A stretch of 64,000 bases of DNA from Sharpea porci (GTDB lineage: Bacteria; Bacillota_I; Bacilli_A; Erysipelotrichales; Coprobacillaceae): the NCBI RefSeq assembly GCF_009695655.1, contig NZ_VUNM01000001.1, positions 62,001-126,000 of the forward strand, written 5' to 3'. Numbering within the stretch: position 1 is the stretch's first letter; every line of letters begins with the position of its first letter. Both the position numbers and the translations under genes were made by a program. Below the pieces are notes generated by a model, which saw only the letters and a list, made by a program, of their open reading frames with translations, searched no databases and was not told where the DNA came from. Of the stretch, positions 16,722 through 53,845 are shown piece by piece.

Positions 16722-16930
16722 AAAAAAGCCGCTCCTAAAAAGGAACGACTTCATCGTGGTACCATCCTTGTTCACAGTATTTCTACTGCCTCTAAGACTC
16801 TTAACGCGAGTTAGACGTTGATGTTTGCATCACTCTCGAAAGTAGCCCACTCTTATCGACTGAAGATTTTCACCAGCCATCTTCTCTCTTTAAGCCTCTA
16901 AGAATTTAATCTTTCTCAACGATTTACCCC
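16722..16930 (-). promoter_or_regulatory. T-box leader of alaS, specifier GCU (Ala)
   Basis: Read on the minus strand, the distal stem I loop is GGTGAAA. The specifier GCT, followed by A, lies 28 nt downstream at 16846-16844. The antiterminator T-box AAGGATGGTACCACG is at 16769-16755. The terminator pairs 16741-16749 with 16728-16736 and runs into six T. It lets uncharged tRNA-Ala switch on alaS. Confidence 0.9.
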
Positions 16931-50498: not shown

Positions 50499-51794
50499 TT
50501 ATTTAACTGCATCAAATGCCTGTGATAAGTCATCAATAATATCATCAATATGTTCAGTACCAATAGAAAGTCTAATAGAATTTCTATAAATACCAACAGA
50601 ATTTAATTCTTCATCATTCATTTCTGCATGTGTTGTTGTAGCTGGATGGATAACAAGTGATTTTACATCAGCGACATTAGCAAGTAATGAGAAGAGTTCA
50701 AGATGATCGATAAAGTCTTTGGCTTTTCTTTCATCACCTTTGATTTCAAATGTGAAGATAGATCCACCACCATGAGGGAAGTACTTCTTGTAAAGACGTT
50801 GTTGTTCTGGATCATTTGAAACTGATGGATGATGAACCTTCTCTACCTGTGGATGATTATTAAGGAATTCAACAACCTTTAATGTATTTTCAACCTGTCT
50901 TTCTACACGCAATGACAATGTTTCAAGTCCCTGTAAGAAGATAAATGAATGGATTGGTGATAAAGTCGCACCTTCATCTCTTAAAAGAATAGCACGAATT
51001 CTTGTAACATAAGCAGCCGCACCGACATCCTTTGCGAAGCTTACACCATGATATGATGGATTTGGTTCAACAAGCTGAGGGAATTTATCAGCATGTGCAG
51101 CCCAGTCAAACTTACCAGCATCGACAATGACACCACCAATTGTTGTACCATGGCCACCAATGAATTTTGTAGCCGAATGCACAACAACATCTGCACCATA
51201 TTCAATTGGTCTAATTAAGTATGGTGTACCAAATGTATTATCAATAACAAGTGGTAAGCCATGCTTATGAGCGATATTCGCAATAGCTTCAATATCAACT
51301 GTATCTGAATTTGGATTACCTAAAGTTTCAATAAAGACAACCTTTGTATTATCCTGGATGGCATCTTCAAAATTCTGTGGGTTAAGAGCATCTACAAATG
51401 TTGTTTCAACACCATCTTCTCTTAATGTATGAGCGAATAAATTGTATGTACCACCATAGATATTCTTTGCGGCAACAACATGATCACCAGCAAAGGCTAA
51501 GTTCTTGATGGCATAAGTTACAGCAGCAGCACCTGATGCAACAGCTAAGGCTGCAACCCCACCTTCCAAAGCCGCAATTCTCTTTTCAAAGACATCAGTA
51601 GTTGGGTTTGTCAGACGGCCATAAATATTACCGGCATCCTGTAAGCTAAATCTAGCAGCAGCATGATCTGAATTCTTAAATACGAATGATGAAGTCTGAT
51701 AAATTGGGACTGCTCTTGAATCAGTAACTGGGTCTGCTTCTTCCTGACCTACGTGTAAAGCTAAAGTTTCGAAATGATATTTTCTATTTGACAT
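50499..51794 (-). CDS. metY: O-acetylhomoserine sulfhydrylase
   Basis: This encodes 431 residues of the Cys/Met-metabolism PLP family. HFETLALHVGQE at the start, the insertion typical of MetY, NIYGGTYNLFAHTLREDGV, and VHSATKFIGGHGTTIGGVIV with the PLP Lys identify it. The length of 430 fits MetY rather than the 380-residue MetB/MetC. It makes homocysteine from O-acetylhomoserine and sulfide. ATG 51794 has the site AAGGAGAAA. It is a single gene with an unusual leader of about 164 nt. Confidence 0.93.
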   Translation of the reverse strand: MSNRKYHFETLALHVGQEEADPVTDSRAVPIYQTSSFVFKNSDHAAARFSLQDAGNIYGRLTNPTTDVFEKRIAALEGGVAALAVASGAAAVTYAIKNLAFAGDHVVAAKNIYGGTYNLFAHTLREDGVETTFVDALNPQNFEDAIQDNTKVVFIETLGNPNSDTVDIEAIANIAHKHGLPLVIDNTFGTPYLIRPIEYGADVVVHSATKFIGGHGTTIGGVIVDAGKFDWAAHADKFPQLVEPNPSYHGVSFAKDVGAAAYVTRIRAILLRDEGATLSPIHSFIFLQGLETLSLRVERQVENTLKVVEFLNNHPQVEKVHHPSVSNDPEQQRLYKKYFPHGGGSIFTFEIKGDERKAKDFIDHLELFSLLANVADVKSLVIHPATTTHAEMNDEELNSVGIYRNSIRLSIGTEHIDDIIDDLSQAFDAVK

Positions 51795-51958
51795 AATTAT
51801 TGTTTCTCCTTATTTCTATTGTATCTTCTTTTTATTGAGGTTACAACATATGTCGCATGACGACTATGTCGGTTCTCTCCCGACACATTCGTGCTAAGGA
51901 GAGGATTACATGGTATGAAATTGTCATTGTTTTTCCTCCCGACTACTTCTCTTGAAGT
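51795..51958 (-). promoter_or_regulatory. Structured metY leader, candidate translational switch
   Basis: The leader has hairpin ACTTC-AAGA-GAAGT at its 5' end. In the middle the segment TCTCCTTA (51902-51895) is fully complementary to the metY Shine-Dalgarno TAAGGAGA (51812-51805). The overlapping CTCTCC (51903-51898) can instead pair with GGAGAG in the loop of hairpin TGTCGG-GAGAGAA-CCGACA (51885-51867), making a pseudoknot. The two pairings exclude each other. No conserved SAM-I core, T-box or other class I know is present. Confidence 0.5.
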
Positions 51959-51964
51959 GACTAT

Positions 51965-51993
51965 ACTATAACTTTGTAAACCCATAAAGTCAA
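51965..51993 (-). promoter_or_regulatory. metY promoter
   Basis: On the minus strand TTGACT (51993-51988) and TATAGT (51970-51965) are 17 bp apart, placing the start near 51958. From 51994 to 52110 I see only AT-rich DNA. Confidence 0.8.
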
Positions 51994-52109
51994 TAGGTTT
52001 TAGAGATTTTTGTTTACTTATATCATAAATTTGAGTTATATTTTTGTATTTATCGTAATTATAAATTATATATTTTGAGTTCTATAGGCTAATCCTATAT
52101 ATAAATAGA

Positions 52110-53548: not shown

Positions 53549-53566
53549 ATTTTTCTCACTTTCTTA

Positions 53567-53595
53567 TTGACTCATGTACAATACTTTGATATATT
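53567..53595 (+). promoter_or_regulatory. Promoter of tRNA-Asp copy 1
   Basis: TTGACT (53567-53572) and TATATT (53590-53595) are 17 bp apart. Confidence 0.82.
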
Positions 53596-53608
53596 CTTAT
53601 TCGTACCT

Positions 53609-53686
53609 GGTCTGGTAGTTCAGCTGGTTTAGAATGCCGCCCTGTCACGGCGGAGGTCGCGGGTTCGAGCCCCGTCCAGACCGCCA
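53609..53686 (+). tRNA. tRNA-Asp (GUC), copy 1
   Basis: A 78-nt tRNA. Acceptor GGTCTGG pairs with CCAGACC, with discriminator G and CCA encoded. The anticodon stem CCGCC/GGCGG encloses CTGTCAC, anticodon GTC. The T arm contains GGGTTCGAGCCCC. It is followed by its own terminator. Confidence 0.97.
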
Positions 53687-53697
53687 GATACAAACAT

Positions 53698-53724
53698 CCT
53701 TCGGTGAAAGCCGAAGGTTTTTTT
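53698..53724 (+). terminator. Terminator of tRNA-Asp copy 1
   Basis: CCTTCGG (53698-53704) pairs with CCGAAGG (53711-53717), followed by seven T. Confidence 0.9.
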
Positions 53725-53725
53725 A

Positions 53726-53754
53726 TTGACTTCACATGCCATAACTGATATATT
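53726..53754 (+). promoter_or_regulatory. Promoter of tRNA-Asp copy 2
   Basis: TTGACT (53726-53731) and TATATT (53749-53754) are 17 bp apart, the same two boxes as copy 1 with a different spacer. Confidence 0.82.
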
Positions 53755-53767
53755 ACTATTCGTAGCT

Positions 53768-53845
53768 GGTCTGGTAGTTCAGCTGGTTTAGAATGCCGCC
53801 CTGTCACGGCGGAGGTCGCGGGTTCGAGCCCCGTCCAGACCGCCA
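53768..53845 (+). tRNA. tRNA-Asp (GUC), copy 2
   Basis: Identical to 53609-53686 over all 78 nt, 159 bp downstream of it. It has its own promoter and terminator. Confidence 0.97.

Follow-up and report, generated by a model that had tools for sequence, protein, structure and literature searches.

The window analysed here is a stretch of 64,000 nucleotides from Sharpea porci, and the locus of interest lies on its minus strand. There, metY (50499-51794) encodes an O-acetylhomoserine sulfhydrylase of 431 aa that scores 619.6 bits against TIGR01326, for which the cut-off is 495.1. By consensus scan we located a predicted metY promoter, TTGACT-N17-TATAGT, at 51993-51965 (10/12 matches), just as an earlier note on this DNA had claimed. 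Most of the metY leader is occupied by a short upstream open reading frame (uORF) of 28 codons at 51841-51927, which encodes the leader peptide MTISYHVILSLARMCRERTDIVVMRHML ahead of its stop codon. It has its own ribosome site, the Shine-Dalgarno sequence GGGAGG at 51935-51940, read directly, with the ATG 7 nt further on. Within the uORF, the codons CGA-ATG-TGT at 51883-51891 specify Arg13-Met14-Cys15, and relatives carry the same core as a conserved codon triplet. A hairpin, TGTCGG/CCGACA (51867-51885, predicted fold), starts exactly at the Cys codon; its arms lie at 51885-51880 and 51872-51867, with GGAGAG in between. Further on, the arm CGACATATGTTG (51844-51855) is predicted to pair with either the metY start region or the upstream CGACATAGTCG; these predicted pairings are Sharpea-specific and without conservation. 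The metY Shine-Dalgarno, TAAGGAGA, was likewise read directly, at 51805-51812.

Several other features were observed in the window and around the promoter. An inverted repeat at 51978-52000, AAACCTAT-TGACTTT-ATGGGTTT, spans the -35 box, and of 79 relatives, 42 have a TAGGAA/GTAGG-like box 5' of the uORF, where 9.3 would be expected. The repeat or the box is possibly the operator of an Rrf2/CymR-type repressor. Elsewhere in the window, a T-box leader is found at gathering score at 16738-16928, and 53556-53842 holds two plus-strand tRNA genes about 85 bases apart, whose repeated flanks yield a repetitive, spurious ORF on the minus strand.

The earlier note had read the metY leader as a ligand-binding RNA in which two alternative pairings control the metY ribosome site. 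The letters on which that reading was built could be found. As stated there, TCTCCTTA (51902-51895) is perfectly complementary to the metY Shine-Dalgarno over 8 nt; a perfect 8-nt complement to this region arose in 27 of 5000 dinucleotide shuffles, which makes it unusual, yet it was picked out after looking. The overlapping CTCTCC was said to pair alternatively with the loop of the downstream hairpin, and TGTCGG, GGAGAG and CCGACA are all present, but the minimum-energy fold pairs CTCTCC with the upstream GGGAGG instead; in the same fold, the metY ribosome site and start codon are taken up by pairing with CGACATATGTTGTAACCT. A third partner, GTCGGGAG, does occur upstream, at 51943-51936, one base away from where it had been placed, and it overlaps the uORF ribosome site. 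The whole leader is also more structured than its shuffles (z -4.1). However, except for the metY Shine-Dalgarno and the upstream GTCGGGAG, all of the proposed switch segments lie inside the uORF, and TCTCCTTA corresponds to its Leu-Ser-Leu codons. Nor do the pairings persist in relatives. The Shine-Dalgarno complement shrinks to 7 nt in S. azabuensis and to 5-6 nt, partly of other bases, in the next relatives (loci L087 and L089), and in L087 a hairpin ATGTGC/GCACAT sits at the same codons as the Sharpea hairpin with its bases changed. What relatives share is the peptide and the codon core, not an RNA fold. When searched with Rfam 15, the leader had no match at gathering score or credible E-value, and the same models returned nothing relevant on 18 related metY loci or on 20 further metY loci without the uORF. 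With pairings that are unconserved and lie within uORF codons, we regard a riboswitch acting through the Shine-Dalgarno and pseudoknot pairings as very improbable. What survives of the earlier proposal is its outline, namely that a cis-regulatory leader precedes metY, is tied to sulfur metabolism and matches no Rfam family.

The uORF itself is strongly conserved. MetY of Sharpea shares 98% identity with its counterpart in S. azabuensis DSM 18934, and the genes differ at 106 of 1296 nt (8%), with 90 synonymous codon changes; the spacer and the upstream region differ as well. Over the 87 nt of the uORF, we found no difference. For a broader comparison, metY loci were collected by metY similarity alone, and a pattern scan (CGAATG) together with a peptide profile then widened the set. 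In Erysipelotrichaceae, metY leaders encode MKKLKLHSIHSVLALNRMCSELKAHTMMC, MKLTTKLFTPSLLALNRMCGRA, MKILTIDYFLALDRMCISR, MIRDLIIHLRHNFRNGRMCY and MSFELLKQLRHNFRNGRMCCFV, among others, while Lachnospiraceae and Ruminococcus-like MAGs have metY-leader peptides ending in RMCC, RMCCC or RMCCCC. The commonest form, which we call class A, follows LRxN[FYW]R[NF]GRM and is exemplified by MKLLFEKLLRQNFRYGRMCHC. These uORFs have ribosome sites, are short and conserve their residues through synonymous change, and their translation is predicted. The class-A profile misses the Sharpea peptide, which has nothing beyond the Arg-Met-Cys core in common with class A. The two are linked by L087 (LALNRMC), L089 (LALNRMC) and L091 (LALDRMC), and judging from these sequences the Sharpea peptide is tied to class A through its close relatives and gene context.

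In Erysipelotrichaceae and in many Clostridia, uORFs with the core stand before metY; the family is patchy, with many sampled metY leaders lacking the element. At E 0.05, profile matches were found in 46 of 391 genomes of Clostridia, with a few weak ones at the end of the ranking, and in 33 of 150 genomes within one family at E 0.003; among 346 genomes of Bacilli there was one clear match. At one locus (L209, position 1527, minus strand), a class-A-like peptide (LVRSNYRFGRMYCC...) has no sulfur gene close downstream, and the next ORF resembles a sigma-factor gene. The peptides match no model in Pfam or NCBIfam, and no paper in the open-access literature contains the core motif strings that we tested. 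Neither open-access text nor the Pfam, NCBIfam and Rfam databases appear to describe this peptide family.

To compare codons, we gathered cores by a peptide pattern that allowed any residue after GR and left the codons unconstrained, which yielded 66 distinct class-A cores. The last motif Arg is encoded by CGA in 66/66, and the next residue is always Met. The two other motif arginines are CGA in 4/66 and 9/66 (13/132 together) and are commonly AGA, CGT, CGG, CGC or AGG; the rest of the motif varies freely among synonymous codons. Fisher's test for CGA at the last versus the other motif arginines gives p = 8e-40, a value that overstates independence because the cores are related. In metY genes, CGA makes up 3.6% of Arg codons. 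Although some loci had first been fetched by the CGAATG pattern, every locus obtained from the peptide profile alone has CGA too. When any Arg codon was admitted before ATG in the metY-based sample, 45 peptides had CGA, and the six others were seemingly unrelated. The rule is strict only where the Arg is present, since the poly-Cys or Met-Cys leaders L004, L057 and L066 carry other codons before AUG. Reading of CGA by an inosine tRNA is inefficient. Such an inosine-containing tRNA-Arg reads CGA in most bacteria (PMC3711424, PMC10454642). Our search for tRNA-Arg(ACG) by anticodon-arm pattern found no tRNA; decoding of CGA by an ICG anticodon is therefore taken here from general knowledge (PMC3711424, PMC10454642).

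The invariance of CGA-AUG could reflect an RNA-level signal instead of a decoding effect. For instance, a protein, nuclease or sRNA might recognise CGAAUGU(G) in RNA or DNA, and its being read in one frame would then be a coincidence. The constraint does run beyond the six invariant bases: the codon after the core AUG begins with U in 61/66 cores and with UG in 54/66, and it is a stop in 25/66, with UGA in 22 of those 25. Among 61 class-A leaders, UGA accounts for 17 of 20 stops directly after the core, against 16/78 at the downstream genes. On the other hand, the conserved peptide always reads the site in one and the same frame, at a fixed spacing from its start codon, and no cis complement accompanies the site; the longest complement to CGAAUGUG averages 4.19 versus 4.03 in shuffles, which is no enrichment. 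We therefore rate a recognition site as quite improbable. A transcriptional pause sequence was also considered and set aside, as it leaves the invariant C of CGA unexplained.

What follows the core bears on another possibility, plain Cys-codon attenuation of the trp type, in which a shortage of charged tRNA-Cys stalls the ribosome and a downstream RNA structure switches. Many members have 2-6 Cys residues, mostly directly after the core; RMCCC or RMCCCC occurs in many relatives, in Sharpea the Cys codon is precisely where the hairpin starts, and the downstream genes are sulfur genes. However, Cys is entirely absent from 21 of 61 class-A peptides, of which 20 end in GRM and a stop, and the Sharpea uORF has a single Cys codon. 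Because about a third lack cysteine, simple Cys-codon attenuation cannot account for all of the family. Under it, neither CGA nor the conserved residues LRxN[FYW]R[NF]GR would be required, and it finds neither a terminator nor structured spacers to act on. As the whole explanation it is unlikely.

The part of the peptide before the core is constrained as well, with the core Met at residue 18 in 45/61 class-A peptides. On sequence comparison, three features together point to a ribosome stall: the core is reached after a fixed length of peptide, the conserved residues would sit in the exit tunnel, and a rare codon is invariant. In one form of stall, an abundant sulfur metabolite, be it Met, Cys, SAM or a related compound, would bind in the exit tunnel, arrest the nascent chain and turn metY off. 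Conserved upstream residues and the fixed distance to the start agree with it, such sensors are known (TnaC and tryptophan, PMC8429421), and in Sharpea the metY start codon remains paired (unpaired probability 0.07) when a stall at the core is simulated. In the same simulations, however, the unpaired probability of the metY Shine-Dalgarno rises from 0.47 to about 0.9, so that stalls expose and do not hide it, and poly-Cys runs at the same place suggest sensing of starvation. Arrest by an abundant metabolite seems to us rather unlikely.

RNA structure between uORF and gene offers no common mechanism. The spacers have a median of 59 nt, contain 46-47% A and show no excess structure (mean z 0.12, 79 leaders). 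The mean z of full leaders, -1.13, includes the outlier L060, in which a long inverted repeat is inserted between the uORF and metY (fold z -16.7). A conserved spacer motif was sought in the relatives' leaders and none was convincing. In the search for a terminator/antiterminator pair, only a weak terminator-like hairpin without a U-run was found, inside the Sharpea uORF. Since spacers are unstructured and lack a complement to the core, the family as a whole cannot rely on a terminator, on switching of the Shine-Dalgarno or on a common RNA fold. The hairpin and Shine-Dalgarno part of the modelled mechanism below is lineage-specific, and our confidence in it is moderate. Frameshifting into the metY start was rejected, as in 52 leaders both alternative frames (-1 and +1) close at positions that are not conserved. 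Lastly, Rho (PF07497) was absent from the Sharpea genome, which is 99.4% complete, and was detected in 9 control genomes; a TnaC-like Rho mechanism is unlikely in Sharpea because no Rho was found. With these routes set aside, the translating ribosome is the candidate that is left.

Downstream, 71 of the 79 distinct leaders stand before metY and 8 before lipoprotein (transporter) genes. The latter encode MetQ/NlpA (L119, L160, L165, L231, L237 and L242), a sulfate-binding protein (L243) and an SsuA-type sulfonate-binding protein (L183); a second sulfate-binding case, L169, lies outside the 79-leader set. As predicted from these neighbours, the leaders serve a sulfur supply gene set and are not a peculiarity of metY.

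Regulatory leader peptides as a kind are already known, and what we rate as new is the CGA-AUG core and the Cys-less members. In ErmCL-type translational attenuators, which are linked to antibiotics, a stall in the leader peptide frees the downstream Shine-Dalgarno. A Sharpea stall would do the same, whereas the hairpin switch is unconserved in the family and there is no antibiotic link. SpeFL is a ligand-sensing arrest peptide like TnaC and is Rho-dependent. In plants, the MTO1 region of cystathionine gamma-synthase responds to SAM. As in TnaC (PMC8429421), our family has a short peptide with conserved residues before the proposed stall, in some members at a stop codon, and a metabolic gene downstream, but the sequence is different, and TnaC and SpeFL act via the Rho not found in Sharpea. 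The likeness to MTO1 (PMC8137854) is that a nascent peptide controls a related sulfur amino-acid enzyme; its sequence is unrelated, and MTO1 is in-gene, eukaryotic and SAM-induced. The nearest concepts are two other systems. Mycobacterial polycysteine short ORFs (Canestrari et al. 2020, as presented in PMC9094748) also stand before sulfur genes and contain Cys codons; they are described there as cysteine-responsive and leaderless, whereas the uORFs here have a Shine-Dalgarno and an invariant CGA-AUG, often lack Cys and belong to other phyla. The uORFC-8-2 motif before cysS, a cysteine gene, likewise has a uORF with Cys codons; as outlined in PMC8632094 it is a two-stem RNA of Rhodobacterales with an intrinsic terminator, neither of which is present here. 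As far as the text of these two sources shows, both systems are without the CGA-AUG core or Cys-free members.

Taken together, we assign a probability of roughly 0.65 to the reading that the uORF encodes a regulatory leader peptide and that a ribosome pause at CGA-AUG-UGN sets the expression of sulfur genes. Directly observed are the uORF and its conservation, the invariant CGA-AUG and the sulfur genes downstream; the stall, its trigger and its direction we infer as follows. A ribosome translating the uORF would pause at CGA-AUG-UGN (Arg13-Met14-Cys15 in Sharpea), and more strongly under methionine or cysteine shortage, because it would be held there either by the Met codon and the Cys codons after it or by the nascent peptide in combination with a poorly read CGA. 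The pause would turn metY on, a direction suggested for the sulfur genes because Cys runs sit at the stall point. A ribosome held at the core in Sharpea would mask the first arm of the TGTCGG/CCGACA hairpin, and the leader would then refold and expose the metY Shine-Dalgarno. In most relatives, where the spacer is unstructured, protection of the mRNA by the stalled ribosome would be the likeliest route. A bolder version, which we put forward only tentatively, is that these are widespread sulfur-sensing arrest peptides in which CGA-AUG itself senses: weak inosine-adenine reading would tie the next step to Met or Cys without any RNA switch.

In many gut Clostridia and Erysipelotrichaceae, annotation appears to have overlooked a regulator of the supply of sulfur amino acids because its ORF is very short. 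An Arg that is always CGA, beside arginines whose codons vary freely, is a rare natural sign of selection on the codon and not on the amino acid, and it raises the question of whether the reading of CGA before AUG sets up a regulated ribosome stall.
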